DNA of 64,000 bases from an uncultured Marinicella sp. (GTDB lineage Bacteria > Pseudomonadota > Gammaproteobacteria > Xanthomonadales > Marinicellaceae). Position numbers and translations under genes: made by a program. Under the pieces are notes generated by a model. The model was not told where the DNA came from. It saw only the letters and a program-made list of their open reading frames with translations, and ran no database searches. The stretch spans positions 124,001 through 188,000 of the forward strand of contig CANNAM010000001.1 of the NCBI GenBank assembly GCA_947502595.1, given 5' to 3'. Position 1 is the stretch's first letter. Every line of letters begins with the position of its first letter. Below are positions 19,077-36,980 of this stretch, in pieces.

Positions 19077-19907
19077 TCAATCAAAACCATTTTTGAAAAT
19101 CAAATCATTTTCATGGATCATCAAAGAAGTGATTTTTAGCGGATTCTCAGATTCGCCAAAGCTTAAGATGGTGTAAAACCAGCGCCATGTGCGGTTCTGA
19201 GGAGAGTAGTTAAGTATCCAATGGTTGTCGTAATTGAATTCATCCTTATAAACCCCGTCATCTGCTAGGCTGATGCCATACTCGCCAGTGGTCATCATAC
19301 TGATGGCGTTGATGTTTTTATATGCACCTATGCCATCAATAGTTGAGGTTGAATCATACTCTAAACTGAACACACTGCCATCATAACGTACCAGATCTGC
19401 AGCAACTACGGAAATAGAACCCACAGTGGCCGGACCATCAGTAGAGAAAATCAAGTCACCATTTTCAGCGTCAATGGTAAAGGCATTGATGTTGATGTTG
19501 CCAAAACCCTGAGTCACCGCATCAAAATAGAAACTAAAAGTGCTACAACTAAAATTGCTACAACGAATAATATCTGATTTCATAATACCGAAGCCATTGA
19601 TAGTGGTATCATTATCAAAAGAAAAATATTGAAATCCACCACTGTCTCGATGGTAACCATCTACTAAAGCACCTTTAACATCCCTGATTAACGAGGGCGT
19701 TAATGTAGCTGATGGCGCACTACCATCGACAAAATCTCTGACAACAGTATTACCGTACACATGAATATTATCTACGTTGATATAATCAATATTAGTTGAG
19801 TATTCAACCTCATCAACATAAAAAGGTATGGCTTGTCCATGAACATTTAGCACTGTGAATAGCAACATTAATATGACACTATATTTGGGTAAAGTCTGAA
19901 TATACAT
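19077..19907 (-). CDS. secreted protein with GFE-type C-terminal tail (unrecognised family)
   Basis: 276 aa from the ATG at 19907, which has an AGGAG site 7 bases upstream; a longer reading from 19949 overlaps the neighbouring gene and is rejected. Residues 1-25 look like a cleavable signal peptide ending near NVHGQA. The body holds two or three diverged repeats of about 45-50 residues with a pattern like INAFTIDAENGDLIFSTDG then ADLVRYDGS. I recall this repeat from other secreted bacterial proteins but cannot name it. The last residues, DLIFKNGFD, match the tails of two other secreted proteins in this window. It follows 19925-20620 by 17 bases, so the two are probably one operon. Confidence 0.75.
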   Translation of the reverse strand: MYIQTLPKYSVILMLLFTVLNVHGQAIPFYVDEVEYSTNIDYINVDNIHVYGNTVVRDFVDGSAPSATLTPSLIRDVKGALVDGYHRDSGGFQYFSFDNDTTINGFGIMKSDIIRCSNFSCSTFSFYFDAVTQGFGNININAFTIDAENGDLIFSTDGPATVGSISVVAADLVRYDGSVFSLEYDSTSTIDGIGAYKNINAISMMTTGEYGISLADDGVYKDEFNYDNHWILNYSPQNRTWRWFYTILSFGESENPLKITSLMIHENDLIFKNGFD

Positions 19908-19924
19908 CAGAATTCTCCTGTTAA

Positions 19925-20620
19925 TTATGGACATAATGAGCCACCACACACACTGTCGTTGGTGTATATGCCACAGCTGTTGCTGCCGTTATCAGTCAGG
20001 TAAACATTACTGCAGACCACTGCGACTATGCCGTTGCCTCTGTTGCCTCTGGCGTAGGAGTCTTTAACAAATAAATTACTGAAAATACCGTTACTGATGC
20101 CGGTGTTAAAGTTTCTGTTGGCCACACAATGACTGACCATGCCATTGATAACGGATATACCAAATTCATTTTCAGTGCTTTGGATGCTTTCAACCACATT
20201 GCCTCTGGAGCTTGATGAGGTCAAACTCACGCCAGTATCAAAGCCTTTGACGATGCCATTTTTTACTTTGATGTTATTCCTGCCCACTGCCGTAATGCCA
20301 TGCGCTGTCATGCCTGAATTGGTACAGACTAAAGTGCCGTTATCACCGGTGCAAGTTCTGGGTCCAATGATGGAAAAGCCATTCAAATCTAGCGTGACAT
20401 TGTTGCTGTTGATTTGAATCACACTGGTAGTGGTTGATGTTGAGACCATGTTGGAGGTGAGTTGGTAACTGCCTGGTTGGGTGATGGTTACTGGAAAACC
20501 GCCAGTATCTCCTGGAAAACAACCAAAACCATCACATACATCATTGATGGCGAACACGCCGTCAGCTGCCAATGCGTTACCAAACACCATTGTTGAACAT
20601 AAAATAATCATTTTTTTCAT
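19925..20620 (-). CDS. secreted right-handed beta-helix repeat protein
   Basis: 231 aa from the ATG at 20620, which follows AGGAG with an 8-base spacer; the frame is open to 20689 but that start has no support. It has a signal peptide of about 18 residues (MKKMIILCSTMVFGNALA). The rest has the parallel beta-helix pattern NNVTLDLNGFSIIGP followed by repeated short turns with Gly, Asn and hydrophobic ladders (NNIKVKNGIVKGFDTGVSL). Several Cys residues (CDGFGC, CTGD, CSNVYL, CGIY, CGGSLC) suggest disulfides outside the cytoplasm. Unlike three other secreted proteins nearby it lacks the GFE-type tail. Binding or enzymatic activity cannot be inferred. Confidence 0.75.
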   Translation of the reverse strand: MKKMIILCSTMVFGNALAADGVFAINDVCDGFGCFPGDTGGFPVTITQPGSYQLTSNMVSTSTTTSVIQINSNNVTLDLNGFSIIGPRTCTGDNGTLVCTNSGMTAHGITAVGRNNIKVKNGIVKGFDTGVSLTSSSSRGNVVESIQSTENEFGISVINGMVSHCVANRNFNTGISNGIFSNLFVKDSYARGNRGNGIVAVVCSNVYLTDNGSNSCGIYTNDSVCGGSLCP

Positions 20621-20799
20621 AAAATACTCCTGCTTGAATAGTTGAATTGAATGTACCTGAACGAATACTTCGTTTCTGGGTATGTACATCTATTCGAGAA
20701 TGGGCGTAAATTTATGACATGAATGCTTGAAATTGTGCCAGTCAGCAGTGTTTTATGTTTGTCTTTTAATGCCGCAAATTAGTGACTTCTCCTTTGTGG

Positions 20800-21759
20800 T
20801 TATCGTATAAAACGATCTGTGGCCTTTACCAGCTCACTGGCTATGGCAGGTTCAAAAGCTGAATGGCCGGCATCAGGAACCACAACCAGCTCGGCTTCAG
20901 GGAAAACCTGGTGCAAATCAAAAGCTGTTTGCATGGGGCAAACCACATCGTAGCGGCCTTGGATGATAATGGTAGGAATGTGGCGGATTTTGTCAATGTC
21001 ATCCAACAGCTGATTTTCATGAGTGAAAAAACCATCATTCATGAAGTAATGGTTCTCAATGCGAGCAAAAGCCAAGGCGAATTCAGGGTCAGCAGTGTCT
21101 TCAATGTGTTGTAAGTCCGGGTAAAGGTGACAGGTGGAACCTTCCCACACCGACCAACGCTCAGCAGCGGCTAATTGCACCTCTTTATCATCAGATAACA
21201 GGCGCCGCTGATAAGCCGCCATCATGTCATGGCGTTCATCGACTGGAATGTGTTCAAGGTATGCTTGCCAAGCATCGGGAAATATGCGACTGGCACCTGC
21301 TTGGTAAAACCATTGAAGCTCTTGTTTGCGCAGCAAGAAAATTCCCCTGAGCACCAGTTCAGACACCCGCTGAGGATGTTTTTCTGCATAGGCCAAAGCC
21401 AAGGTGCTGCCCCATGAACCGCCGAAAACTTGCCATTGTTCAATACCCAGCATCTCACGGATGGTTTCCATGTCAGAGGTTAAGTCCCAAGTGGTGTTGT
21501 CTTCAAGGCAGGCATGTGGTGTGCTGTTGCCACAACCACGTTGATCAAACTGAATGATGTGGTATTTGTCAGGGTTGAAAAATCTGCGGGTTTGCGCAGA
21601 AGTGCCACCGCCAGGTCCACCATGTACAAAAATCACTGGTTTGCCGTTGGGGTTGCCACTGCTTTCCCAATAGACTTGATGGGTCTGAGTGACTTGAAGG
21701 TGGCCAGATTTAAGCACCTCGGCGGCGGGGTAAAGTGGGTTCAATGCTTTGTTTGACAT
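20800..21759 (-). CDS. pip: proline iminopeptidase
   Basis: 319 aa. This alpha/beta-hydrolase removes N-terminal proline from peptides in the cytoplasm. The oxyanion-hole motif HGGPGGG (46-52), nucleophile elbow GGSWGS (Ser115), acid GRYDVVCP and final His in DAGHSAFEP are all present, as is the PIP-typical FDQRGCGNSTPH. The start is placed at ATG 21759 by comparison with remembered family N-termini (LNPLYPAAE close to the start); an in-frame ATG at 21783 would add 8 residues. It is divergent from the transporter-pxpABC operon with about 100 bp between the starts. Confidence 0.93.
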   Translation of the reverse strand: MSNKALNPLYPAAEVLKSGHLQVTQTHQVYWESSGNPNGKPVIFVHGGPGGGTSAQTRRFFNPDKYHIIQFDQRGCGNSTPHACLEDNTTWDLTSDMETIREMLGIEQWQVFGGSWGSTLALAYAEKHPQRVSELVLRGIFLLRKQELQWFYQAGASRIFPDAWQAYLEHIPVDERHDMMAAYQRRLLSDDKEVQLAAAERWSVWEGSTCHLYPDLQHIEDTADPEFALAFARIENHYFMNDGFFTHENQLLDDIDKIRHIPTIIIQGRYDVVCPMQTAFDLHQVFPEAELVVVPDAGHSAFEPAIASELVKATDRFIR

Positions 21760-21857
21760 GTTGAGTTCAATTGCTGGGGGCATTTATTATGATTTTTTTT
21801 ATCCCCACATTCAAGCCAGCTCAGTTAAAATCATTGCAGTATGTTTCAGGAGCAATG

Positions 21858-23060
21858 ATGGCGAACAAATTTTCAATAGGTCCTGCCACTTTGGTGGCTG
21901 CGGCTTTTATTGGACCAGGCACAGTGACCACTTGCACACTGGCTGGGGCCAATTTTGGCTACGCCTTGATTTGGGCGCTGGTGTTTTCCGTGCTGGCTTG
22001 TATGTTGTTGCAGGAAATGTCGGCACGTTTGGGCGTGGTGACACAACAGGGTTTGGGCGAGGTTTTACAAACTCAGTTTAAACACCCGTTACTCAATACC
22101 GCAGTGTTTGCATTGGTGGCGGTGGCCATATTTATTGGCAACAGTGCCTATGAAGGTGGCAACATTGCTGGTGCTGCGTTGGGCTTGGCGGCCATTTTTC
22201 CGGAATTAAATTTTCCATGGCCGGTGTTGATTGTGGCATTGGCTTTTGTGGTGTTGGTACAAGGCAGTTATCAAGTGCTAGAAAAGGCATTGATTGGTTT
22301 GGTGTTGTTGATGAGTTTGGCCTTTGTCAGTACTTTTATCATGACCAAGCCAAATTTGGGTGATTTGTTTGCTGGTTTAACCCCTCAAGTACCTGATGGC
22401 GCCTGGTTAACAGTGATGGCATTGGTTGGAACCACAGTGGTGCCTTATAATTTGTTTTTACATGCCTCAGCGGTTAAAAACAAATGGCATGAAGCTGCTG
22501 ATCTGCCGCAGGTCAGGAAAGACACGGTGATTTCTATTGGTGTGGGTGGCTTGATATCTTTGGCGATTATTTCAACCGCTGCCGCAGCTTTTTTTGGCCA
22601 ACAAGTCAGCATCAATTCAGCCGCTGACATGTCGGTTCAGCTTGAACCTTTATTGGGTTCTTGGGCTTCGGTATCTATGGGCATGGGTTTATTCGCTGCC
22701 GGTATTTCATCATGCATCACGGCGCCATTGGCAGCTGCTTATGCAGTGGCAGGCATGTTGGGCTGGTCCACTACTGGCAAAGACTTGAAATTCAAAGCAG
22801 TGTGGGCGGTGGTGTTATTCAGTGGCTTGGCTTTTTCATTGTCAGGCTATAAACCCATCACCATCATTTGGTTTGCGCAAATTGCCAACGGTATTTTATT
22901 GCCTTTACTGGCGGCATTTTTGCTGTATGTGATGAACAGGTCTGATTTATTGGGTGCGTATAAAAACACGTGGTTACATAACCTGTTGGGTGCAGTGGTG
23001 ATTATATTGTCTATGTTTTTGGGGGGCAAATCGCTGTATTTTGCCTTTACATCAACATGA
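21858..23060 (+). CDS. Nramp-fold transporter lacking canonical metal ligands
   Basis: 400 aa, about 11 membrane spans. It aligns with Nramp/MntH in TM1 (AAFIGPGTVTTCTLAGANFG, 15-34) and TM6 (GTTVVPYNLFLHAS). Classical Nramp transporters bind Mn/Fe with Asp and Asn of DPGN in TM1 and Met of the TM6 MPHN motif. Here these are GPGT (19-22) and VVPYN (194-198), so all three side chains are missing. The gene overlaps pxpA by four bases (ATGA) and leads the 5-oxoprolinase genes; B. subtilis ycsG, another Nramp-like gene, sits next to its pxpA (ycsF). The start at 21858 has AGGAG five bases upstream; an adjacent ATG at 21855 and a far upstream frame from 21771 are less likely. Confidence 0.85.
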   Translation: MANKFSIGPATLVAAAFIGPGTVTTCTLAGANFGYALIWALVFSVLACMLLQEMSARLGVVTQQGLGEVLQTQFKHPLLNTAVFALVAVAIFIGNSAYEGGNIAGAALGLAAIFPELNFPWPVLIVALAFVVLVQGSYQVLEKALIGLVLLMSLAFVSTFIMTKPNLGDLFAGLTPQVPDGAWLTVMALVGTTVVPYNLFLHASAVKNKWHEAADLPQVRKDTVISIGVGGLISLAIISTAAAAFFGQQVSINSAADMSVQLEPLLGSWASVSMGMGLFAAGISSCITAPLAAAYAVAGMLGWSTTGKDLKFKAVWAVVLFSGLAFSLSGYKPITIIWFAQIANGILLPLLAAFLLYVMNRSDLLGAYKNTWLHNLLGAVVIILSMFLGGKSLYFAFTST

Positions 23061-23845
23061 CTCAGTGGCAAACAATAGACCTGAACTGTGACTTGGGTGA
23101 GTACGATGATTTGACTCAGGGAGAAAACGATGCCCAAATTATGCCGTTAATCAGTTCTTGTAACATTGCTTGTGGCGGCCATGCGGGTAACCAGCAGGTG
23201 ATAGAGCGCAGCATTGCACTGGCGATGGCGCATGCGGTTAAAATCGGTGCTCACCCATCTTATCCGGACAGGACACACTTCGGTCGAAAGGTGATGCATT
23301 TACCTGCCAATGAGTTGCGAGTGGTGGTGCGTGAGCAGATCGCTGTACTCATTGCCGCAGCCCTAGACCAAGGTGTCCATGTGGCCCATGTTAAGCCACA
23401 TGGCGCATTATACAACCAAGCCGCCTTGGACTTGAATTTGGCCTTATTGTTGGCTGAAACCATCGGAAGTTTCGAGCAAAACCTGTTATTTTATGGTCTG
23501 GCGCACTCTGCCATGGGTCAGGCAGCTGAACAAGTTGGCGTGCCTTTTGTGGCTGAGGGGTTCGCTGATCGGGCCTACACAGTTAACCGAACATTACAGC
23601 CTCGCAGCGAACCGGGAGCCGTCATTGCCAGCGCTGAAGCGATGTTGCAACGGGTGATTAAACTTCTACAGACGGGACAGATGACGGCAGTTTCTGGTCA
23701 AAGTATTGAACTACAGATTGACACTTTGTGTTTACATGGCGACCACAAGGACGCTGTGCAGGCGGCCAAAACCTTGCATCAGGGCTTGTTGGCAGCTGGC
23801 TATGATATAAAAGCGCCCGTCTGTTCAGAGCACCGTCATGGGTGA
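23057..23845 (+). CDS. pxpA: 5-oxoprolinase subunit A (LamB/YcsF family)
   Basis: 262 aa. It has the family opening DLNCDLGE (8-15), then SSCNIACGGHAGN (33-45) and AHPSYPDR, and HVKPHGALYNQ in the middle. PxpA works with PxpB and PxpC to hydrolyse 5-oxoproline (pyroglutamate) to glutamate using ATP. Length is normal (about 250 aa). It is translationally overlapped on both sides: 4 bases with the transporter gene and 8 bases with pxpB, which supports one operon. Confidence 0.95.
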   Translation: MTQWQTIDLNCDLGEYDDLTQGENDAQIMPLISSCNIACGGHAGNQQVIERSIALAMAHAVKIGAHPSYPDRTHFGRKVMHLPANELRVVVREQIAVLIAAALDQGVHVAHVKPHGALYNQAALDLNLALLLAETIGSFEQNLLFYGLAHSAMGQAAEQVGVPFVAEGFADRAYTVNRTLQPRSEPGAVIASAEAMLQRVIKLLQTGQMTAVSGQSIELQIDTLCLHGDHKDAVQAAKTLHQGLLAAGYDIKAPVCSEHRHG

Positions 23846-24545
23846 GTTGCAGATCGACCACATCTTGCCGAATGGTGACTGCGGTTTATTGCTTCGATTT
23901 GCGGATACTGAACATCGATTGGCAGCCATTCACAGTTTAGCCGCTGACATGTTACGTTCGCCTTTGGCTGCAATGACCAATGTGATACCTGCTACCGACA
24001 GTTTGGTGTTGGTTTTTTCAAAGCCAGTCGACTTTACCTCGGGTTTAATCGATGAAATAAAGTTTCGAGTTGAGCAGCTAACCATTGGCCAAGGTCTGGT
24101 GCAGACCCATGAAATTCCAGTGTGCTATGCAGCTTCGCTGGCCAATGATTTAGAGGCTGTTTGCGCTGAGTTACAATGTTCACAGCAGCAATTGATTGAG
24201 CGCCATACAAATTCGGTTTACCGTGTAGATATGTTGGGATTCTTACCGGGGTTTGCCTATTTGTCTGGTAACCACCCGGCCATGCAGTTACCACGTAAAG
24301 CCACGCCCAGTTTACAAGTTGCCCAAGGCAGCATTGCCATTGCAGGGCAACAAACAGGTATATATTCATTGGCCAGTCCTGGTGGTTGGCATGTGATCGG
24401 GCGCACGCCAATTGCCTTGCTAGACTGGCAAAATAACAGCCAACCGATGTTGTTAAAACCGATGGATAAAGTCACTTTTATACCTATTAGCCTGACTGAA
24501 TTTCATGCCATGGAAGCAGCCGAGGAATCAACCAATGGGCATTGA
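23838..24545 (+). CDS. pxpB: 5-oxoprolinase subunit B (KipI-like)
   Basis: 235 aa. It has the carboxyltransferase subunit C/D (AHS1) pattern: GDCGLLLRF near the N-terminus, VCYAA in the centre, MLGFLPGFAYLSG (about 134-146), PRKATPSLQVAQGSIAIAG and SPGGWHVIGRTP near the end. Together with PxpC it forms the module that pairs with PxpA for ATP-dependent 5-oxoproline hydrolysis; in B. subtilis the homologue KipI also inhibits sporulation kinase KinA. It overlaps pxpA by 8 bases and pxpC by 11 bases. Confidence 0.93.
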   Translation: MGELQIDHILPNGDCGLLLRFADTEHRLAAIHSLAADMLRSPLAAMTNVIPATDSLVLVFSKPVDFTSGLIDEIKFRVEQLTIGQGLVQTHEIPVCYAASLANDLEAVCAELQCSQQQLIERHTNSVYRVDMLGFLPGFAYLSGNHPAMQLPRKATPSLQVAQGSIAIAGQQTGIYSLASPGGWHVIGRTPIALLDWQNNSQPMLLKPMDKVTFIPISLTEFHAMEAAEESTNGH

Positions 24546-25440
24546 AGTCTTACAAGCGGGTACATTCACCACAGTACAAGACAAGGGGCGTTATGGTTGG
24601 GCACATTTGGGGGTGCCAGTGGCAGGGTGTATGGACCAGCAGTCAGCGCAGTTGGCCAATTGGATGGTGGGCAATCAACCCACTTCGGCGGTGTTAGAGA
24701 TGACTTGGACTGGTATGGAATTCACCTGCCAAGTGGACTGTTCAATGGCGCTGGCAGGTGCGGAATTTGAGTGCAGTCTGAATGGCCGTATTATCAACAC
24801 CGACCAAGTCATCAATTTGCGCATTGGTGATCATTTTAAAATGCATCGTTTGCTGCAAGGTGTCAGGGCTTATTTGGCTTTCGCCGGTGGTTTTGATTTA
24901 ACTGCAGTTGGTGGTAGTTACAGTACCTTGGTAGTGGCTGGCTTGGGAGGTTATGCTGGCCGGAGTTTACAAGCAGGTGATGTCTTGCGCTTAAAACAAC
25001 CGACCACAGTGGCCAGCAAAACCAAACCACAGTGGAAAAAATTAAAGCGCCAATCGATTCATGTCATCAGGGCGATGCCAGGGCCTGAATACGACTGTTT
25101 TACCCCAGCTGTTATTAGGCAGGCATTTGGCCAAGCCTATCAATTATCCAGTGCTGCAAATCGACAAGGATTCAGGTTGATTGCTGCGGCCATTGAAACC
25201 CCTAAAGGTTTTCATATGAACAGTTCTGGCTTGGTGCCGGGCAGTTTGCAAGTGACACCTGATGGGCAAACTATTTTGGCCATGCAAGATGCGCAAACCA
25301 CGGGTGGTTACCCCCGAATATTGGTTGTTGATCAGTCCCAAATCCATCAGTTGGCTCAGATTCGAACTGATGAGGACGTTTATTTTTATGTAGGGCATGA
25401 TCAACGCAAAGTGGTCAAATTAGCAGCGAATTACCAGTGA
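24535..25440 (+). CDS. pxpC: 5-oxoprolinase subunit C (KipA-like, biotin-dependent carboxyltransferase family)
   Basis: 301 aa. AHS2 domain: GTFTTVQDKGRYGWAHLG at the N-terminus, then GVPVAGCMDQQSAQLAN, AYLAFAGGFDL in the middle, and MNSSGLVPGSLQVTPDGQ with TTGGYPRI at the end. This is the third subunit of prokaryotic 5-oxoprolinase. The start is the ATG at 24535, eight bases after GAGGA; a longer frame from 24505 would lie deep inside pxpB. It is the last gene of the operon; 121 bp later a secreted-protein gene begins on the same strand. Confidence 0.94.
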   Translation: MGIEVLQAGTFTTVQDKGRYGWAHLGVPVAGCMDQQSAQLANWMVGNQPTSAVLEMTWTGMEFTCQVDCSMALAGAEFECSLNGRIINTDQVINLRIGDHFKMHRLLQGVRAYLAFAGGFDLTAVGGSYSTLVVAGLGGYAGRSLQAGDVLRLKQPTTVASKTKPQWKKLKRQSIHVIRAMPGPEYDCFTPAVIRQAFGQAYQLSSAANRQGFRLIAAAIETPKGFHMNSSGLVPGSLQVTPDGQTILAMQDAQTTGGYPRILVVDQSQIHQLAQIRTDEDVYFYVGHDQRKVVKLAANYQ

Positions 25441-25585
25441 TGTAGCAGTTTTCAAGTAAATTTCAGGATAATTTCAGGTGTTTTTCAGACATCATTTTCA
25501 CCCGCTTCGTAAAATTTCACTCAAGTATTCAACCAGCAAAAGCTGAGCAGTTGAATGAGTTTTGAATAATCAGAGGAGTAAAGTT

Positions 25586-27298
25586 TTGCACACAACAAAT
25601 CAAAAAACCATGCACCAGAATCAATTGAGGTCAGTAAAAGTATTCAGTACCATGTTGCTGTTAGCGGCCATTGGTTTTCAAGTTCAAGCAGCCACCACCA
25701 TCACAGTTGATTGGGCCTTGGATGAAGAACCCAACCACAACAACCACACCTGTACTTACACCCAAGGTGGATTATTTTTTCCTGACACCACCGGCACAGG
25801 AGCTGGCAAGTGCACATTAAGACGCGCTTTGCGAGAAGCGGGCGCACGACCGTTGGTAGACCGCCCCATTAATATTGTCTTCACAGGGTTGAACGGCACT
25901 GATGGTGATGCCGATGACACACAGTTCAGCTCAGGGCAGTGGGTGTTGCCGATTGCAGCTGGTGCCAGCACCAGTAAATTTGGTTTATACCCGCAATCAA
26001 TCACTGATGTCACCGGCCAGGTGAACATCATCGGTTTTCCAGTTGATGTTCAAGGCAACAATGAAATGCCGAAGATTATGGTCGACAGCGGTAAAACACT
26101 GGAGATTGAATTGAATGATGTGACAATTCAAGCAATGGGCTTTTATGGTGGTATGAGTATCCACGCCAAAGAAGCAGGCTTTACTTTCCAAAACAACACT
26201 TGGGGCTTGGCCGCAGACGGGCTGGATATGGTATTTGGTGACTTGCTTGGTAACACCGATAATTTGGCTGGTAGTCACGGTGTATTGGGGTTGGCCAAAG
26301 CCGATGATATGTTGGTGCAAAACAACATCATCACTGGTGCATCAACCTACGCAGTGGAAGTCAACTCAGCGACTGAAGGGGTGCAAGTTTTGAATAATTG
26401 GATAGGCACCAACATCAATGGCTCAGTGCCCACTGTACCTGTTCATTTGGTTTGTCGAACGTTCACCAACATCAACCCAGTGTCACCGCCTTTGCAGGCA
26501 GGTGAGTGGTTTGGAGGTGCTGGTATTTCTGCTGCTGGAACTGGATTGTTGATTGAAGGTAATTACATTGCAGGCTTGCAAAATATTCGCAGCACCAACG
26601 ACACACCGCCCGAAGCTTTAACCGTATTTGGCTCTTTGCATACCATTGAAAATAATGTCATTGGCCAAAGTGTTGATGGTCAATCTATTGGTGTTTGCGG
26701 GCAAGGCATCAAGTTTTCGACCCAAACCGATGTGATTACCCCGGTTAACAATGGCCATTTGGTGTTGAATAACCTCATTGATTCTTCACGCAACGGTTTT
26801 GAAAACACCAAAGGTGCGATATTGTGGAGTGATACCAGCAGCCCTGCATTTCGTGACAGTGGCAATACAGTGCGTGGTAACCTGGTCATTGATGGCCCGG
26901 AAAAATACTTTGAGATGGGCCCGATGATTGCCTCAGCAATTCGCTTGTTTGAACCGGCTGAAATCACCAGCGTGGAGGGTACTTTGGTTGCTGGCAGAAG
27001 TCACACCGGAAACATCATGGGCGACCCCAGTCCTTGTCCTAACTGCATAATTGATTTTTATTTAGATGATACCGATGGCAGTGAAGAAGCTTTCGTGCAC
27101 TTAGGTTCGACAGTGGCCGATGGCAACGGTGATTTTTCTTTCAATATGACAGCACCATTGCCCAACGGTTACGGCATCAGAACCACCAGCACCAGCCAAG
27201 CCAATGATGTGATTCCCAATACATGGGCTGGCACCACATCAACCCTGTCTAATGAACTGTACGGCTCGGATGTGATTTTTAAAGATGGTTTTGAGTAA
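25586..27298 (+). CDS. large secreted CSLREA/beta-helix protein with GFE-type C-terminal tail
   Basis: 570 aa. The start is set at TTG 25586, seven bases after a strong AGGAG; the ATG at 25610 is the alternative and gives a cleaner signal peptide (hydrophobic stretch STMLLLAAIGFQVQA). The N-terminal part has CTLRRALREAG, a CSLREA-type motif common at the start of secreted beta-helix proteins. The middle (about 150-450) shows right-handed beta-helix turns (VQNNIITGASTYAVEV, VLNNWIGTN). The C-terminal 100 residues resemble an Ig-like/Big-type fold (IDFYLDDTDGSEEAFVHLGS). It ends with DVIFKDGFE, the tail shared with two other secreted proteins here. Adhesion or polysaccharide binding is possible; activity is unknown. 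Confidence 0.8.
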   Translation: MHTTNQKTMHQNQLRSVKVFSTMLLLAAIGFQVQAATTITVDWALDEEPNHNNHTCTYTQGGLFFPDTTGTGAGKCTLRRALREAGARPLVDRPINIVFTGLNGTDGDADDTQFSSGQWVLPIAAGASTSKFGLYPQSITDVTGQVNIIGFPVDVQGNNEMPKIMVDSGKTLEIELNDVTIQAMGFYGGMSIHAKEAGFTFQNNTWGLAADGLDMVFGDLLGNTDNLAGSHGVLGLAKADDMLVQNNIITGASTYAVEVNSATEGVQVLNNWIGTNINGSVPTVPVHLVCRTFTNINPVSPPLQAGEWFGGAGISAAGTGLLIEGNYIAGLQNIRSTNDTPPEALTVFGSLHTIENNVIGQSVDGQSIGVCGQGIKFSTQTDVITPVNNGHLVLNNLIDSSRNGFENTKGAILWSDTSSPAFRDSGNTVRGNLVIDGPEKYFEMGPMIASAIRLFEPAEITSVEGTLVAGRSHTGNIMGDPSPCPNCIIDFYLDDTDGSEEAFVHLGSTVADGNGDFSFNMTAPLPNGYGIRTTSTSQANDVIPNTWAGTTSTLSNELYGSDVIFKDGFE

Positions 27299-27317
27299 AT
27301 ACACAAAGACCAAGTAA

Positions 27318-27353
27318 GTTAATTTGGTGGCCAAGGATGGCTGCCAAATTAAC
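27318..27353 (+). terminator. 15-bp hairpin after the secreted-protein gene
   Basis: GTTAATTTGGTGGCC (27318-27332) pairs over 15 positions (two wobbles) with 27339-27353 around a 6-base loop. It lies 20 bases past the stop at 27298. There is no T-run after it on either strand, so it may be a processing or stabilising hairpin rather than a true intrinsic terminator. Confidence 0.5.
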
Positions 27354-27468
27354 TGTCTTAAATTATATTTATTTTGATCAATCTCCCGCTTATGTGGATA
27401 ATTTTTACGGAGCAAAAGATTTAAATCCGCTGCTATTCAAGACATCGACTTTAATCGACAATTTTCGT

Positions 27469-28236: not shown

Positions 28237-28241
28237 AGCGC

Positions 28242-29312: not shown

Positions 29313-29318
29313 GTCAGC

Positions 29319-29987: not shown

Positions 29988-30045
29988 CTTGTTAAAGTGG
30001 AAAAATCACGCATTATAACACCCTCTAGATTAATTCTTGGGTGCA

Positions 30046-30327
30046 TCAATTAATGAAAATTCTAAAAAATATGACAAAATTAAGAATGGTTAATAGCCAG
30101 TACCAAAAGAGGAACTTGAAAACATTGAAGGCGTTAAATGGTTTCAATAATGGATAAATTGATACAAATGCAGGCAGGAGTACCACCAAATATGCCAGCA
30201 ACACGCCTACGTCAGTACCTCTTAGTTTGGGCAGTAAAGCGTATAAAGCTGAGTAACACAAGGTGATACAGACCGCATCAATTAATAAAAATTTTACCGA
30301 AGTGTGTACATGTATCATGCATTTCAT
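30046..30327 (-). CDS. small membrane protein (hypothetical)
   Basis: 93 aa, with three or so hydrophobic segments (ITLCYSALYALLP; VGVLLAYLVVLLPAFVSIYPLL; FKFLFWYWLLTILNFVIFF). No family is recognised. The DNA is AT-rich and no clear ribosome site precedes the ATG at 30327; a second in-frame ATG lies three codons later. It sits 34 bases after the AmpG-like gene stop on the same strand. The regular hydrophobic pattern argues for a real gene, but the evidence is modest. Confidence 0.5.
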   Translation of the reverse strand: MKCMIHVHTSVKFLLIDAVCITLCYSALYALLPKLRGTDVGVLLAYLVVLLPAFVSIYPLLKPFNAFNVFKFLFWYWLLTILNFVIFFRIFIN

Positions 30328-30361
30328 AGAGTCAGCGATGCATGATTTAATTCAATTTATT

Positions 30362-31954
30362 TTATTTGTTTACTTGGGTATGGTGATTTTTAGGATTGGG
30401 TGCATTGTTATCTTGCTTGAATTCAACGGTTTTGGATGCAAAATCAAAGGCATTGATCTTCATTGCATACAGCAGCATTAAAACCACAGGTATACCAATG
30501 ATCGCAGTCATTAAATAAAAGTTGCCAAAGCCCATTTGTTCCACCATACCACCCGAGTAGCCGCCCAGCACTTTGGGAAATAAGGTCATGATCGATGACA
30601 ACATGGCGTATTGCACAGCGGTGAACTGGCGGTTGACCAGCAGCGATAAGAACCCCACAAAAACCGCGCCAGCCAAGCCTTGGGCCAGGTTGTCGGCAGA
30701 AATCATAAAAGTTAAAAACAGCAGGCTTTTACCGGTGTAGGCCATCACCATAAACAGTAAATTAGACCCAGCTGATAACACCGCCCCAAGCACCATCATT
30801 TTCATGATACCAAAACGCAGCACCAAAAAGCCACCAGCCAAGCCGCCTGAAATGGTCATGATTAAGCCAAAAGATTTGGCCACACCAGCAATCTCGCCCA
30901 AAGTGAAGCCCACGTGCTGATAAAATAAATTTGCGGTCACGCCCATCACAATGTCAGAAATCTTATAGGTACAAATGATGCCAAGTACCAACCAAATATG
31001 TTTGCGGTGGCGTTTAAATAGATCAGCCACCGGCGTCCAATACACTTCCTTGATCATGGTTTGGTTAACCAAGGGTGTTTTGGCCACCAAAGTGGCGATG
31101 ATGCCGGCCATCAACAGTGCCAGTAGCAGTTGTCCGCCGGTGGCAATGACTGACGCCAATACCTCGTTATTGAATAAGTTATCGGCCGATGTTTGCAGTG
31201 CAGCGAATAGTTCTGTGGTGTTCTTGTAACAAAATATGAGGGTGAACACCGCCAATACAAAAACCAACAGTACGGCTGCATAATCGCGGGTTTGGTAGAC
31301 CAGTTGGTCTGGTTTTTTGGGTTCTTTGACCATCAATGTAGTCATCACGCCAACCAACATACAAGCAGCCATAATCAAGTAACTGGTCTGCCATGCAGCG
31401 TGTTTATAACTGTCCATACTGGTGCCTAAATAATCTGCAATGAATAAAGCGCCAGCACCTGAAGTTATCATGCCAATTCGGTAACCAACGATATAGACAG
31501 ATGACAACATGGTGATGTCTTTCTCATTGGAAGCTTCAATTCGCCAAGCATCAATCAATATGTCTTGAGTGGCTGCTGAAAAACCCAATAAAGTAACCGC
31601 GATGGCCATTCGAGTTAAGGCACTGTTGCCTTGTGCTGGATCGGTTAAGCCCATCCAACAAATGGCAATGACAATGATGGTTTGAATGAACATCAGCCAA
31701 CTGCGCCGCTGTCCCATTTTTGCGGTTAAATAAGGCAGCGGTAAACGGTCAACCAAAGGTGACCACAAGAATTTAAATGAATAGCCTAATGCAGCCCAGC
31801 TGAAGTAAGTGATGGCAGATTTTTCTACCCCCACTTGGTCCAGCCACAGCGACAATGATGAAAAAATCAAAAAATAGGGTATGCCAGCTGAAAAGCCAAA
31901 CAAAGTCATGTGTAAGAATTTAGGGTTGAGTAAATGCTTTAAGGTTTCTGACAT
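30362..31954 (-). CDS. AmpG-like muropeptide permease (MFS)
   Basis: 530 aa with about 12-14 membrane spans. The start LLNPKFLHMTLFGFSAGIPYFLIFSSLSLWL (partly seen here as GFSAGIPYFL, 20-29), the loop WSPLVDRLPLPYL and GQRRSWLMFIQ, and the ATQDILIDAWR stretch (about 125-135) are AmpG hallmarks. AmpG imports anhydromuropeptides for peptidoglycan recycling and, in species with AmpR/AmpC, links recycling to beta-lactamase induction. No ampD or ampR lies nearby. The family also includes acetyl-CoA-transporter-like members, so the exact substrate is inferred. Confidence 0.85.
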   Translation of the reverse strand: MSETLKHLLNPKFLHMTLFGFSAGIPYFLIFSSLSLWLDQVGVEKSAITYFSWAALGYSFKFLWSPLVDRLPLPYLTAKMGQRRSWLMFIQTIIVIAICWMGLTDPAQGNSALTRMAIAVTLLGFSAATQDILIDAWRIEASNEKDITMLSSVYIVGYRIGMITSGAGALFIADYLGTSMDSYKHAAWQTSYLIMAACMLVGVMTTLMVKEPKKPDQLVYQTRDYAAVLLVFVLAVFTLIFCYKNTTELFAALQTSADNLFNNEVLASVIATGGQLLLALLMAGIIATLVAKTPLVNQTMIKEVYWTPVADLFKRHRKHIWLVLGIICTYKISDIVMGVTANLFYQHVGFTLGEIAGVAKSFGLIMTISGGLAGGFLVLRFGIMKMMVLGAVLSAGSNLLFMVMAYTGKSLLFLTFMISADNLAQGLAGAVFVGFLSLLVNRQFTAVQYAMLSSIMTLFPKVLGGYSGGMVEQMGFGNFYLMTAIIGIPVVLMLLYAMKINAFDFASKTVEFKQDNNAPNPKNHHTQVNK

Positions 31955-32210
31955 GACAAAAGATTACAAATTTGGGCAGTTTAGCATGATTGTTTGTATG
32001 ACCTGGTTCGGTCCATGGTATATGGCAGTTAATTATCAGCATAAAAGCCATGAACTTCAAATTTAATATTTTGTTTATTATTTTATAATGGGTTATTATT
32101 GTTGTAGAACTTTGCATGTACGGTGAACCCTGGATATAAATTGTGCTGGTTTTTGAACTGGTTTTATCTGCTGCAAACACCTCTGGACAAGAATATATCG
32201 AGGGCTGTGA
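31955..32210. other. divergent intergenic region, AmpG-like gene / cNMP-rhodanese gene
   Basis: 256 bp separates the two divergent starts and must hold both promoters. It is AT-rich around 32060-32100. Small frames on either strand lack any coding character. I could not fix a promoter with confidence. Confidence 0.4.
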
Positions 32211-33254
32211 ATGATTGAGGCGGAAGACTTAAAAGAATATTATCCTTTCAATAAAATTGAGATAAAATTTTATCCTTTACTATTGAATGAATTTGAATTC
32301 TTTCAAAAACAGCAAGGTGATAAGCTTTATGCAATCGACCGCCGCGCTGAAAACACCAAATACCTGACCCATGGCGTGGTGCAAATCACCACCGACAAAG
32401 GCCGAGAAAAAACCCTTAAATCTACCTCGTTATCAGCCAAATACCCGGTTGGTGATGCCAATAAAAGCAACACCATGGATGCAGTGGTCACTTCTAAAAC
32501 CATGAAAGGCTTTCAAATCAGCTCTAATTTACTGGACCATATTCAAGTTTGGAACAGTGCTTATACCGCTGCCACACCAGGTAGTCCTCTGTTAGGCCAT
32601 GACAGCTATGCATGGGTGGTTGGTTTGTTGAAAAGCCGTTCGGTGCAAATGTTGCCACAAGCCAATATTCGCGAACTTTTTATGCAACTGGAGGCGCGCC
32701 CGGTCAAAGCCGGTGAGGAAGTTGTTGCCGAAGGTGAGGCTGGGGACTATTGTTACATCATTGCGGCTGGTGAAGCGGAAGTGTTTCAAGCCGTTGCCGA
32801 AGGCGAGCAAAAAATTGCCGAACTCGAGGCGGGATCGCTGTTTGGTGAGTCTGCACTGGTCAGCAGTGAGCCTAGGAATGCCTCGGTGCGAATGAAAACC
32901 GATGGTTTGCTGATGGCGCTGGCTGGGGTGACTTTTTCGAAGTTACTTAAAGCCCATGTCATCCGGTGGGTGAATCCACAAGCGGCATTGGAGATGTTAA
33001 AAAATGGTGCGACTTTGGTGGATGTCAGAGAGCCTGTTGAGTACGCGCATCAATCCATTGAAGGTTGCTTCAATATTCCAGTCAACCAAGTCAGAAAAAA
33101 TATCCACAAGTTAAATTTGGATTCAACCATCATCACGTGCAGTAATATGGGTTCTAGGTGTGCATCGGCTGCCTTCACATTAGCCACTTTGGGGTATGAT
33201 GTCTATGCCTTACAGGGTGGAATCAGCGGTTTGGTCAGAACTTTAGAAAGCTGA
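32211..33254 (+). CDS. cyclic-nucleotide-binding domain fused to rhodanese
   Basis: 347 aa. Residues 1-150 are of unknown fold. About 155-250 is a cNMP-binding beta-barrel with VKAGEEVVAEGEAGDYCYII and a full phosphate-binding cassette FGESALVSSEPRNAS (211-225), including the ribose-contact Glu213 and phosphate-contact Arg222. About 255-345 is a rhodanese domain with the catalytic-loop Cys310 (ITCSNMGSRC) and the opening LVDVREPVEYAHQSIEG. Both halves look functional. The protein could couple cAMP/cGMP sensing to sulfur transfer or to a redox-sensing Cys; this is inference. A GAGGG ribosome site precedes the ATG. There is no cyclase next to it. Confidence 0.88.
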   Translation: MIEAEDLKEYYPFNKIEIKFYPLLLNEFEFFQKQQGDKLYAIDRRAENTKYLTHGVVQITTDKGREKTLKSTSLSAKYPVGDANKSNTMDAVVTSKTMKGFQISSNLLDHIQVWNSAYTAATPGSPLLGHDSYAWVVGLLKSRSVQMLPQANIRELFMQLEARPVKAGEEVVAEGEAGDYCYIIAAGEAEVFQAVAEGEQKIAELEAGSLFGESALVSSEPRNASVRMKTDGLLMALAGVTFSKLLKAHVIRWVNPQAALEMLKNGATLVDVREPVEYAHQSIEGCFNIPVNQVRKNIHKLNLDSTIITCSNMGSRCASAAFTLATLGYDVYALQGGISGLVRTLES

Positions 33255-33306
33255 TGTTGGCCGCTTCGCGGTGCTTGCTAAACTGGTTTTTAACACATAA
33301 ATCTGC

Positions 33307-33312
33307 TACAAT
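33307..33312 (+). promoter_or_regulatory. possible -10 element upstream of prpB
   Basis: TACAAT is followed by a GC-rich start region about 150 bases before prpB. The -35 is weak at any usual spacing (TGGTTT or CTGGTT near 33284), so activator dependence is possible. This is a weak prediction. Confidence 0.3.
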
Positions 33313-33462
33313 GCGCCCGCTTGATTTTGGGCCATACCTGCAGTTGCCAAGTATTTACACAGTACTTATATATGGCAGCCAATGCACAACCTAAATCATT
33401 GCGTCGATTTACCTTTATAACTGCGCTGAATTGCATGATTCAGCCAAAATGCGATTAACACT

Positions 33463-34350
33463 ATGACCCATTCAAATCAAAGTGCGGGGCTGAAATTCCG
33501 TCAAGCTGTCGAACACAACCAACCCTTAAAAGTGGTTGGCACCATCAATGCCTATACTGCACGCATGGCAAAAAATGTGGGCCATCAGGCCATATACCTC
33601 TCTGGTGGTGGAGTGGCAGCCAATTCATTGGGGATGCCTGATTTGGGTATTTCGTCATTGGAGGATGTGTTAACTGATGTCAGAAGGATCACCGATGTGT
33701 GTGATTTGCCTTTGTTGATTGATGTCGATACTGGATGGGGTGGGGCGTTTAACATAGCCAGAACCACGCGCTCAGTGATTAAAGCCGGTGCAGCTGCGAT
33801 GCACATCGAAGACCAGGTGTCGCAAAAAAGATGTGGCCACAGACCCAATAAAGAAGTGGTCTCGAAAGATGAAATGGTTGACCGCATAAAGGCCGCTGTT
33901 GATGCCAGAACTGATGAGAATTTTGTCATCATGGCCAGAACGGATGCCCTGGCTATTGAAGGAGAGGAGGCCACTTTGGAACGCGCCATTGCTTGTGTGG
34001 AGGCCGGTGCGGACATGATTTTCCCTGAAGCAATGCAGACTTTGGCGCAGTATCAAAAATTCAAAGATGCAGTGGGCGTACCCATTTTGGCTAACATCAC
34101 TGAGTTTGGCCACACGCCTTTGTTCAGCTCGGATGAATTGGGCGAACACGGTGTAGATATTGTGTTGTATTGTTGCAGTGCTTACCGGGCCATGAACCGA
34201 GCGGCTGAGTTGGTTTACCAATCTATCTTGGCGCAAGGTCACCAAAAAGATGTGCTGGATATCATGCAAACACGAGCAGAGCTGTACGATCATTTGGATT
34301 ATCACAGCTACGAAGATAAACTAGATGAGCTTTTCAAATCAGAAAAGTAA
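33463..34350 (+). CDS. prpB: methylisocitrate lyase
   Basis: 295 aa. Last step of the 2-methylcitrate cycle: splits 2-methylisocitrate to pyruvate and succinate. It shows the ICL/PEPM-fold signatures [16 protein letters not shown] (45-60), Mg-binding [10 protein letters not shown] (85-94, Asp87/Asp89) and the active-site loop KRCGH (122-126, Cys124). Length is typical for PrpB. It is followed by prpC after a 128-bp gap containing a repeat element. No strong Shine-Dalgarno is visible before the ATG. Confidence 0.95.
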
Positions 34351-34364
34351 TTAAAAAAATATTT

Positions 34365-34440
34365 AGGGTTGTTGACTTCAGTCAACCTTTTATAAAACCA
34401 AAACCTACGGTTTTACGGGTCGGCTAAAGCCAACAACCCT
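34365..34440 (+). repeat. REPIN-like inverted palindromic repeat, copy 2
   Basis: The left arm 34365-34387 and right arm 34418-34440 are inverted copies of each other with 19 of 23 positions matching, and each arm folds on its own (GTTGACT-TC-AGTCAAC). The spacer is 30 bases. The left arm is identical to the right arm of copy 1 (1561-1583) read on the opposite strand, and the spacers share a CTRCGGTTT core. It sits inside the prpB-prpC intergenic region, where the folded RNA could affect transcript stability or termination. Confidence 0.78.
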
Positions 34441-34478
34441 ATTTGAAAAAGAATAACAAAGAATCAAAGGAAAAAATT

Positions 34479-35609
34479 ATGGGTACTACAAAAAAAGCAG
34501 GTGGCGCAGGTCTCAGAGGCCAAAGCGCTGGTGAAACAAAACTATGTACAGTCGGTAAAATTGGTGCAGGTTTAACCTACCGAGGCTATGACGTTGATGA
34601 TTTGGCCACCAATGCCACTTTTTACGAAACAGCCTATTTGATTTTACATGGTAAGTTACCCAACCAGACAGAGCTGGACGCCTATAAAGAGAAAATCAAT
34701 GCTTTGCGTGAGTTACCAGAGGCAGTAAAGAAAACTTTGGAATTGATTCCACGTTCGGCGCACCCAATGGATGTGATGCGTACCGGTTGTTCAATTTTAG
34801 GTAACATCGAAGGTGAAACTGATTTTTCACAACAGTTGGATAAGGCCGATCGTTTGGTTGCGATATTCCCTTCCATTATCTGTTATTGGTATAAATTTGT
34901 CACTGAAGGCGTGCGCATTGAAACCGCCTCTGATATTGATGGCGTGGGTGCCCACTTTTTGGAAATGTTGCATGGTAAAGCACCAAGTGAGCTGCATGCC
35001 AGGGTGATGGATGTGTCTTTGATTCTGTATGCAGAACATGAATTCAATGCATCAACTTTTACTGGTCGAGTGGTTGCTTCAACCTTATCTGATATTCATT
35101 CATGTGTCACTGCATCAGTAGGCGCTTTGCGCGGTCCTTTACATGGCGGTGCCAATGAAGCAGCCATGGCTTTGATTGAACAGTGGTCATCACCAGAAGA
35201 AGCTGAAGCTGCCATTGGTGAAATGCTCAGAACCAAACAGTTGATTATGGGTTTTGGACATGCCGTGTACACTGAGCGTGATCCTCGCAACGCCATCATT
35301 AAGCGCTGGTCTGAAAAGCTGGCTAAAGAAGTAGGCGACACGGTGCTGTACCCTGTAAGTTGTGCAGTGGAAAAGAAAATGTGGGATGAGAAAAGATTAT
35401 TCCCTAATGCTGATTTCTTCCATGCTTCGGCTTACCACTTCATGGGCATACCAACTGAATTATTCACCCCTATCTTTGTAATGTCACGGGTCACCGGTTG
35501 GACTGCGCACGTAATGGAGCAACGGGCCAACAACCGCATCATCAGACCCAATGCCGATTACACCGGCCCTGATACCCGTAAAGTGGGACCAATTGCAGAA
35601 CGCGATTGA
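34479..35609 (+). CDS. prpC: 2-methylcitrate synthase
   Basis: 376 aa. Condenses propionyl-CoA with oxaloacetate, the first step of propionate oxidation by the methylcitrate cycle. Citrate-synthase-fold catalytic parts are GPLHGGANEAAM (first His), GFGHAVYTERDPR (second His) and the late Asp in NADFFHASAYHFMG. The N-terminal TKLCTVGKIGAGLTYRGYDVDDLA matches PrpC rather than the longer GltA type, and the short length agrees. The start is ATG 34479, seven bases after AGGA; an in-frame TTG at 34443 is less likely. It ends with a strong terminator, so prpD or acnD are not in this transcript. Confidence 0.93.
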   Translation: MGTTKKAGGAGLRGQSAGETKLCTVGKIGAGLTYRGYDVDDLATNATFYETAYLILHGKLPNQTELDAYKEKINALRELPEAVKKTLELIPRSAHPMDVMRTGCSILGNIEGETDFSQQLDKADRLVAIFPSIICYWYKFVTEGVRIETASDIDGVGAHFLEMLHGKAPSELHARVMDVSLILYAEHEFNASTFTGRVVASTLSDIHSCVTASVGALRGPLHGGANEAAMALIEQWSSPEEAEAAIGEMLRTKQLIMGFGHAVYTERDPRNAIIKRWSEKLAKEVGDTVLYPVSCAVEKKMWDEKRLFPNADFFHASAYHFMGIPTELFTPIFVMSRVTGWTAHVMEQRANNRIIRPNADYTGPDTRKVGPIAERD

Positions 35610-35632
35610 ACGCTGTTAAAAACTATAAGCAG

Positions 35633-35661
35633 AAAAAGCCCGAAAATGTTCGGGCTTTTTT
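35633..35661 (+). terminator. rho-independent terminator after prpC
   Basis: AGCCCGAA (35637-35644) pairs with TTCGGGCT (35649-35656) around a 4-base loop and is followed by a T-run; flanking A and T runs extend the stem. Because an A-run precedes the stem it can also serve the convergent minus-strand gene at 35682-36980. Confidence 0.9.
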
Positions 35662-35681
35662 GTTTTGTAAATTAATCACTT

Positions 35682-36980
35682 TTAATTGCTTGGTATTTCA
35701 AATCCATCACTGAATATCAAATCTACAATCAGCTGAAATTCAACTGCACCAATGTCACAGCCGCTTACCGTATCGCCATCGCCATCGTTACCACGTGTAT
35801 GACCAGTTTGATCAACTGCTGTTGCGCAGTTTGCAGGGGCGATGGCGTCTATGGCTGGGCTGCCTTCAGCTAAATTATGAGTGGGTGTTGCGCCTCCATT
35901 GTCGGCCAATGTTGTGTCAATGATGTCACTGAGGTTAGGTTCAGCAGGCACCGTATCAGTTGCGCCTAGGGTCACTCCTGATGAGCCGTTGTTGTTGTTA
36001 AAGCCAATGAGGTTGTAATCATTCAAAGTAATGGAGCCTCCCGTAGACAAAATTTCATTGCCATTTAATGTGGCATTGTTGCCAGCAATGAGACTTTGAC
36101 TGATGATGAAGTCAGCTGAGTCATTGTATATGCCGCCTCCTTCGCCACCACTTTGGTTGTTTATCAGGGTGCTGTTTTGAATGGTGATCAGGGAGCTGGT
36201 GGGTGTGGCTGAGACATAATGTATGATCCCAGCGCCATCATATGTGGTTGCATTGTTTGAAATGGTGGAGTTAATTATCGATAAATTCAGCGGTCCACCA
36301 TAATCTGATGCATAGATGCCGGCACCACCAAGGCCGGAATTTGAGGTGTTGTTAGTGATCGTGCTTTGCTGAATGGTCAGCGTTCCACTGGCAATGGATA
36401 ATGCGCCGCCATAGTATGTTCCACCTGGTGAGCTCTGGTTGTCACTGATGATGGTGCGGTTAATTACTGAATCAATTGATCCAGATAGGGTGATGGCGCC
36501 ACCCATATTGTTAGTGATGATTGAATCATTCAAGATCAGGGTTGAGTTAATGGCGTTGATTCCACCACCGTAATTGTTCCCTCTGGAACCACCTGTGACA
36601 GTAACGTCATTCAAGACTATAGTTGGTTGGTTGTTTATAGCAGCAAGGCTGCCCAGTTGTATCACTGAAAAATCTGCGGCATTGGCATCACGTACTATGG
36701 TTGAGCCGTGGGCATTGATGGTAACTGAGTTAATGATGGCAGGCATGGGTTCGGTCAACGTGATGGTACTGTTACTGGGCAGTTCAATCACATCAACACC
36801 ATTGCCTGCAGCACAACCATTGCCAGCTGTGTCGGTGTTGGCGGCATTGATGGCATTGGCCAAGGTGCAATTTACATTATCCACTGTGATGGTCGCAGCC
36901 TGTGCAGCAGTGGTTAACTCCAATAATAAGGCAGCAGCCAAGGCGGTCTGTTGAAAAGACTGTACCGATATTTTGTTCAT
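35682..36980 (-). CDS. secreted CSLREA/beta-helix protein with GFE-type tail
   Basis: 432 aa. The signal peptide spans about 28 residues (ALAAALLLELTTAAQA), followed by ATITVDNVNCTLANAINAANTD, a CSLREA-type opening. Residues about 110-330 are parallel beta-helix turns of the polymorphic outer-membrane-protein type (GGGIYNDSADFIISQSLIAGN, GGGINAINSTLILNDSII). About 340-410 holds a choice-of-anchor-like segment (LADNGGATPTHNLAEGSPAID, GCDIGAVEFQ). The end is DLIFSDGFE plus four residues (IPSN). The first ATG has a GAGGG ribosome site. It is likely a surface or secreted adhesin-like protein; function is unknown. Confidence 0.82.
   Translation of the reverse strand: MNKISVQSFQQTALAAALLLELTTAAQAATITVDNVNCTLANAINAANTDTAGNGCAAGNGVDVIELPSNSTITLTEPMPAIINSVTINAHGSTIVRDANAADFSVIQLGSLAAINNQPTIVLNDVTVTGGSRGNNYGGGINAINSTLILNDSIITNNMGGAITLSGSIDSVINRTIISDNQSSPGGTYYGGALSIASGTLTIQQSTITNNTSNSGLGGAGIYASDYGGPLNLSIINSTISNNATTYDGAGIIHYVSATPTSSLITIQNSTLINNQSGGEGGGIYNDSADFIISQSLIAGNNATLNGNEILSTGGSITLNDYNLIGFNNNNGSSGVTLGATDTVPAEPNLSDIIDTTLADNGGATPTHNLAEGSPAIDAIAPANCATAVDQTGHTRGNDGDGDTVSGCDIGAVEFQLIVDLIFSDGFEIPSN

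Follow-up and report, generated by a model that had tools for sequence, protein, structure and literature searches.

A nine-residue C-terminal tail with the consensus D-[LVI]-I-F-x-[DN]-G-F-[ED] was detected on three secreted proteins encoded in a 64,000-nucleotide stretch of DNA (the window) from an uncultured Marinicella sp., corresponding to positions 124001 to 188000 of contig 1 of a 3.24-Mb genome in 64 contigs. The tail terminates at least 41 proteins of this genome, belonging to many fold families, and is real and general among its exported proteins. Across the order, it mostly comes and goes with a second canonical type II secretion system (T2SS), termed T2SS-A here. To judge from sequence, the tail probably acts as a signal for either secretion or anchoring, and the chances are a little better than even that T2SS-A uses it as a short linear sorting signal.

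The choice of cargo by T2SS is an open question. Two recent papers state that no conserved signal taking T2SS cargo over the outer membrane is known so far (PMC11981180) and that, per the authors, a linear universal T2SS signal is lacking (PMC12369372). In the organism described here, two T2SS are present in one cell and the tail is co-distributed with one of them; a possible role for the tail is that of a short address label, of which none is known so far for this kind of machine. No paper describing the motif was found in the open-access literature searched (most subscription journals being outside its scope) and, as far as searched, the tail is undescribed. If this reading is true, cut-and-graft experiments in environmental bacteria could test T2SS cargo choice directly, and a large part of the proteins secreted by many environmental Xanthomonadales and some Acidobacteriota could be listed by a simple computer rule.

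A conserved tail on exported proteins

The tail-bearing proteins (carriers) of the window, and one neighbour, are as follows.

19077..19949, minus strand: coding sequence of secreted carrier 1; 276 amino acids from the likely ATG at 19907; no profile match in the body
19080..19106, minus strand: C-terminal tail DLIFKNGFD of carrier 1, at the very end; pattern match G000:C1:143081-143097
19925..20689, minus strand: secreted neighbour without tail; a paralogue, L034_3, also adjoins another carrier
25562..27298, plus strand: coding sequence of secreted carrier 2; 548-578 amino acids by choice of start
27269..27295, plus strand: C-terminal tail DVIFKDGFE of carrier 2, at the very end; pattern match G000:C1:151278-151294
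35682..36980, minus strand: coding sequence of secreted carrier 3; 432 amino acids; choice-of-anchor Q domain at residues 357-416
35697..35723, minus strand: C-terminal tail DLIFSDGFE of carrier 3, then IPSN; pattern match G000:C1:159698-159714

An earlier, sequence-only reading of the window had reported these three tails and their absence from the secreted neighbour, and translation of the open reading frames (ORFs) bore out both statements. Its description of CSLREA/beta-helix bodies was upheld in part: the choice_anch_Q profile matched carrier 3 (E = 3e-15), the one window carrier of three with a domain named by profile, and CSLREA-like motifs in carriers 2 and 3 were seen by eye only.

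A DNA pattern for F-x-[DN]-G-F-[DE] produced 50 matches in the window's own genome versus 7 for a reversed control, and a pattern with Ile in front produced 41 versus 0. Thirty-nine of the 50 matches, located in 37 proteins (two with tandem copies), were at most 21 residues from the C-terminus of ORFs of at least 141 amino acids. The other 11 were found in short or unlikely ORFs or at internal places, with one N-terminal match and one in an ORF cut by a contig end. Called genes from stretches around the matches and from an unbiased 400 kb (536 genes) contained 41 carriers; an additional tail-bearing ORF, L067:9339-9788, was missed by the gene caller and lies outside this set. The Phe, Gly and Phe of the tail were fixed by the search expression in the 41 carriers; at the other positions, Asp was present in 36 at the start of the tail, Ile directly before Phe in 37 and Asp or Asn before Gly in 36, and the last residue was Glu in 31 and Asp in 10. 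The tail formed the exact C-terminus of 23 carriers and was at most 19 residues from the end in the remainder. All four Gly codons were used (18, 13, 8 and 2 times), and it is therefore the peptide that is kept.

Signal-peptide calls were made with our own hydropathy heuristic. Signal-peptide-like N-termini were called in 37 of the 38 full-length carriers and recognized by eye in the 38th, the other 3 of the 41 being cut by stretch ends; Tat-like starts were judged by eye in L116, L123 and L170. Cleavable Sec or Tat signals, as T2SS substrates have, were thus recognized in these carriers by this heuristic. The sequence-only reading had allowed that the tail might be no commoner at the C-termini of exported proteins than elsewhere. 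This was not observed in the unbiased 400 kb, which was chosen regardless of the tail and holds 298 called genes: the relaxed tail was present in 12 of 96 proteins with a signal-peptide-like start versus 1 of 202 others, and the strict tail in 8 of 96 versus 0 of 202.

The maximal 17-residue hydropathy within the last 45 residues of the 41 carriers was 1.51 at its highest (median, 0.88), and the last 12 residues contained a mean of 0.37 Lys/Arg (at most 2) and 2.9 Asp/Glu. These values agree with the earlier statement that the tail is without membrane span or basic cluster, and a CTERM-type tripartite signal (LPXTG, PEP-CTERM or GlyGly-CTERM) was rejected on the same hydropathy and Lys/Arg figures. 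One secreted protein, hydrolase-like by eye (L071:1557-2672, minus strand, own contig 4), carried ADLIFYNGFD straight after its signal peptide.

Unlike bodies, with and without the tail

Comparison of the 41 carriers by blastp yielded 7 clusters, one of them with 10 members, and 16 singletons. A forced alignment contained three invariant columns, the search-fixed F, G and F of the tail, and none elsewhere. Profile scans, from which the 25 commonest of 45 Pfam and of 35 NCBIfam families were listed, detected among those listed subtilases (4), reprolysin-like proteins (2), M14 carboxypeptidase, glucose/sorbosone dehydrogenase, lactonase, endonuclease I, FG-GAP and beta-helix repeats. NCBIfam matches, counted at E up to 0.001 with family cut-offs not shown, included choice_anch_Q in 9 carriers, an LPXTG-anchored peptidase family in 3, GlyGly rhombotarget A in 1 and M36 peptidase families described as rhombosortase dependent (3), T9SS dependent (2) and myxosortase dependent (1), where T9SS denotes the type IX secretion system. 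As these families are elsewhere named for sorting systems, the tail stands at the place of other bacteria's sorting signals. 'Choice-of-anchor' is taken by us, from NCBI naming, to point to such a sorting signal.

The endonuclease body of one carrier was searched in named genomes and the best 80 of 569 relatives were examined, with the conserved body end being found in 79. Eighteen of these loci ended in the tail or a near form and were labelled Marinicella, Dokdonella, Tahibacter, Rhodanobacteraceae, Pseudofulvimonas, Chiayiivirga, Lysobacterales or Gammaproteobacteria; one, labelled Acidobacteria, ended in a longer tail form. A further 25 stopped without a tail, in 24 cases no more than 18 residues from the conserved end, and nearly all were from Lysobacter, Luteimonas, Xanthomonas, Stenotrophomonas, Pseudoxanthomonas, Arenimonas, Silanimonas and their kin (one was labelled Xylophilus). 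Other ends were present in the remaining 35, mostly from other phyla, two being transmembrane-looking (L272 and L275) and two tail-less loci being labelled Gammaproteobacteria and Lysobacterales (L303 and L305). The Dokdonella endonuclease resembles the Lysobacter end plus a tail. In an AlphaFold model of L239 (domain with tail, 36 sequences), the body was confident, and residues 265-275 had a predicted local distance difference test score (pLDDT) below 50, with 37 for the last block; the tail is thus predicted to lie beyond the folded body.

These data bear on the explanation that the tail is the end of one homologous domain, which the sequence-only reading had named as an alternative, or a compositional or chance pattern. 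Several carriers are paralogous, as in the blastp cluster of 10. The homologous domain was nevertheless rejected from the blastp clusters, the alignment and the variety of Pfam families, together with the tail-less endonuclease homologues, and either version is hardly credible given 41 unlike bodies in which the tail alone is conserved, near-zero controls, the use of all four Gly codons and a folded body that, in the model, ends before the tail.

Two T2SS in the tail-bearing genome

Genes in the GC-rich T2SS loci were identified by tblastn; the labels Xps-like and Xcs-like rest on scores and on what we take to be the characteristic gene order. The T2SS-A locus of the own genome has the order gspC-D-E-F-ftsE-ftsX (C1:63078-69975), and a second system, on C4, consists of an Xps-like cluster from gspE to gspM, followed by C and D. 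This genome encodes two GspD and two GspG proteins, the second GspG within a gspGHIJK cluster. The gspL and gspM genes of system A were not found in the stretches fetched, no genome-wide search for them having been made. A protein of 583 residues encoded close to the gspCDEF locus (L050:13502-15253; own contig 1, 73502-75253) ends in DLIFANGF, the tail minus its acidic last residue.

Locus A was present in tail-bearing genomes of f2, f3, f184, f185, f186 and g275 and also in g282 and f188, and the loci examined in tail-less f2 genomes (G165 and G425) were of the Xps-like kind. GspC of T2SS-A (GspC-A) matched T2SSC (E = 3e-12) and PDZ (E = 3e-7); a PDZ-like end was judged by eye to be present in GspC of g282. 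The Xps-like GspC had no Pfam match at E 0.1, neither T2SSC nor PDZ, which agrees with a report that the Xps protein has a single helix (PMC11981180). A gene located between gspE and gspF in several tail-rich genomes was rejected as an accessory, as the ORFs look unrelated, by eye, across genomes.

Co-distribution of the tail with T2SS-A

Among 369 Gammaproteobacteria, the pattern with Ile was abundant only in the own genome (41 matches) and in G367, of the same order (16), with 0-3 matches in the others. Across 299 genomes of the order, the tail was counted between 0 and 136 times per genome and the control never more than twice. Phylogenetic profiling, as suggested by the sequence-only reading, was performed for a few chosen candidate genes (GspD, GspG and choice_anch_Q only), and a partner was found in T2SS-A. 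In 68 chosen genomes, two or more GspD over the cut-off were present, among the matches listed, in 28 of 28 tail-bearing genomes, and one or no GspD in 33 of 40 tail-less genomes; the 7 tail-less genomes with at least two were G425, G438, two of f188 and three of g282.

With a GspD-A profile and a cut of 4 tails, the 299 genomes were divided into 78 with both tail and T2SS-A, 173 with neither, 8 with the tail only and 40 with T2SS-A only (odds ratio, 42; Fisher's p = 3e-32, which ignores descent), a comparison in which the cut was chosen after the counts had been seen and the genomes are non-independent by descent. The corresponding numbers were 80, 171, 10 and 38 with a cut of 3 tails and 57, 177, 4 and 61 with a cut of 10. 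T2SS-A was counted as present for 118 of 137 GspD-A matches, including contig-end fragments and five intermediate matches (G520, G540, G593, G620 and G638), the 19 weaker matches (full length at 484 bits or less, or fragments of about 370 bits) being dropped. In named genomes, GspD-A was detected in Dokdonella, Chiayiivirga, Pseudofulvimonas, Marinicella pacifica and, as a fragment, Tahibacter and not in Lysobacter chinensis or Xanthomonas melonis. From coinciding scores and coordinates, G428 probably corresponds to Marinicella pacifica, G455 to Chiayiivirga flava, G369 to Pseudofulvimonas and G616 to Xanthomonas melonis.

GspG was examined in 22 genomes. Two or more copies were present in 10 tail-bearing genomes, three of g282, G373 and G620; one in G374, G165, G465, G387, G424 and G593; and none in G384. 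The latter genome (4.7 Mb, 100% complete, 2 contigs) belongs to the family of the window genome; it matched neither GspD nor GspG, and the patterns used detected no tail in it. Within family f2, T2SS-A was found only in G455 and G600, and four or more tails only in the same two genomes. A tree of 21 GspD proteins separated A (15) from B (5) with full support, with A following families and the f2 pair being sister to the four of f3. The GspD-A tree is consistent with vertical descent, and so joint loss of the tail and T2SS-A may have occurred repeatedly, perhaps in three to five independent events.

Dialects of the tail

The tail of g275 is mostly IFxHGFE, and that of genus g282 is F-x-D-R-F-E, a Gly-to-Arg (R) form. 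Whole-genome counts were made with GGN-based patterns, which are too narrow for the R form, and the first pattern was too narrow for g275. Genus g282 accounted for 27 of the 40 genomes with T2SS-A only, and two pattern searches had shown it as nearly tail-less; the view that it has T2SS-A without any tail was overturned by inspection of its choice_anch_Q proteins. Tails of the F-x-[DS]-R-F type ended nine of the 12 choice_anch_Q loci fetched (of 38 matches); the remaining three comprised a cut locus, one with the motif further inside and one with none. R-form tails were observed in all 4 genomes examined of the 27 (G401, G376, G422 and G408), so tails exist in g282, as a dialect. Among 17 choice_anch_Q loci of tail-bearing genomes, 10 ended in the tail, one had it inside, three were cut by the locus end and three had no tail or an unresolved one. 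In eight f2 and f3 genomes without T2SS-A, seven had no choice_anch_Q, and the one protein, in G465, ended without a tail.

A longer form such as IFADGFESGDTSAWSSVVP was found in Acidobacteriota, with 104 matches in G663 and 38 in G664 (control, 0), and all 11 proteins at the loci read ended 10-12 residues after GFExG. In a phylum sample of 149 genomes, only G664 (38) and G688 (92) exceeded 5 matches. An acidobacterial TPR-type GspD (L390:8842-11484) has a cohesin-like domain near its C-terminus.

Candidate mechanism and alternatives

The sorting role proposed by the sequence-only reading has gained enrichment among exported proteins, independence of the body and a partner in T2SS-A, with sorting itself still being deduced from sequence. 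In the proposed pathway, Sec would take the carriers through the inner membrane (Tat would do so for a few, judged by eye), and folding in the periplasm would leave the tail as a flexible end. T2SS-A, with gspC-D-E-F beside ftsEX and gspGHIJK elsewhere, would recruit the tailed carriers; the recruiter would not be the Xps-like system, which tail-less relatives keep. The chance that T2SS-A exports the carriers ranges from about even to likely. The PDZ domain of GspC-A would read the tail, a binding that its domain content makes possible though doubtful. It is similarly tentative that the tail is a linear, portable T2SS signal read by the PDZ domain of GspC, with dialects (D/N-G, H-G and D-R) changing along with their reader.

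Several observations weigh against an assignment of the tail to T2SS-A. The Acidobacteriota genomes G663, G664 and G688 are full of the longer form (104, 38 and 92 matches), and the two of these tested, G663 and G664, scored only 98 and 127 bits with GspD-A. Both have a TPR-type secretin cluster and T2SS-like genes, and no PDZ match was obtained in 8 proteins scanned from these T2SS-like clusters. Eight genomes (G412, G423, G427, G477, G482, G535, G541 and G542) had 4-58 tails and no GspD-A match; four of them consist of 180-530 contigs, but completeness is 97% for G427 and 96% for G482. In several f189 genomes, 1-3 tails were counted without GspD-A. The GspD-A score was not perfectly two-peaked across the 299 genomes, and the tail-less G593 (630 bits), G520 (670), G540 (707), G620 (801) and split G638 were in or near the A range. 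Neither tail form was detected in 400 kb of G422 by a de novo C-terminal motif search and a variant rescan. The tail was short of the very C-terminus in 18 of 41 own carriers, and one copy follows a signal peptide, positions that would not suit a PDZ domain that reads the carboxylate.

The tail might instead be a surface-retention or anchoring tag acting after export, with T2SS-A exporting the carriers by other features and the tail docking to an outer-surface receptor or being processed, much as GlyGly-CTERM acts with rhombosortase after the T2SS of Vibrio cholerae. The carriers match families elsewhere named for anchoring signals (choice_anch_Q in 9 of 41, M36, LPXTG and GlyGly rhombotarget A), such a tag would also permit acidobacterial tails without T2SS-A, and in V. 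cholerae GlyGly-CTERM is described as giving membrane association, with a second signal needed for translocation (PMC13393428). This explanation is, however, unlikely: no processing or receptor partner is known (no genome-wide search for one was made), and enzymes of the CTERM type do not fit a tail without membrane span and basic cluster. It is rather improbable that the tail serves matrix binding, controlled proteolysis or folding and merely follows T2SS-A by shared descent and loss. A few independent losses (G384, the rest of f2, the rest of f3 and parts of f189) may underlie the table, the long form occurs in G663 and G664 in the absence of T2SS-A, and profiling covered three genes only. 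Such hitchhiking is opposed by the joint absence of tail and T2SS-A in G384, within the window genome's own family, by the co-occurrence of the two in isolated genera of f2 and f3 and by the variant tail that turned up in g282, where T2SS-A is present.

Comparison with known sorting systems

The T9SS C-terminal domain (Por tail) directs Sec-exported proteins over the outer membrane and is folded, with about 70-100 residues. The Marinicella tail is likewise a C-terminal tag on Sec-exported proteins but has nine residues and low model confidence. No T9SS tail domain profile was present among the matches to six tail strings or among the 25 commonest families listed for the 41 carriers in either database, and no NCBIfam model matched the tail itself in the six strings. 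Type I secretion substrates have a C-terminal signal and no N-terminal signal peptide; this class was rejected, as the carriers have signal-peptide-like N-terminal starts.

According to excerpts of PMC3237569 and PMC13393428, the GlyGly-CTERM/rhombosortase system resembles the tail in being C-terminal, with many cargo proteins per system, sporadic spread, homologous bodies with and without the signal and, in V. cholerae, cargo linked to T2SS. Unlike GlyGly-CTERM, the tail has no membrane helix, basic cluster or GlyGly motif, and the partner found for it is a T2SS rather than a rhomboid protease, for which no search was made. PEP-CTERM/exosortase and LPXTG/sortase, as covered in the excerpt of PMC3237569, also place a C-terminal sorting tag on unlike exported proteins, with a tripartite architecture that is absent from the tail. 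Excerpts on VesB/EpsC (PMC12369372) and Pel3/PelI (PMC7949064) describe a PDZ-type GspC needed for some cargo and a graftable region. Their determinants are immunoglobulin (Ig) or Fn3 folds plus loops, the PDZ-dependent export information of VesB being graftable but sitting in an Ig fold (PMC12369372), whereas here a short linear tail is found on dozens of unlike bodies.

Neighbours of the carriers

A recurrent neighbour gene was rejected as a partner, as the 154 neighbours of the 41 carriers consisted of 137 singletons and 7 small clusters, the latter including kinases, sigma-factor-like, RHS-like and other proteins. At 19077-20689 of the window, the tail-bearing carrier 1 is paired with the tail-less beta-helix protein next to it. 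At L034:816-5893, the tail-less paralogue adjoins another carrier, behind a sigma-factor-like gene and a Ser/Thr kinase-like gene.

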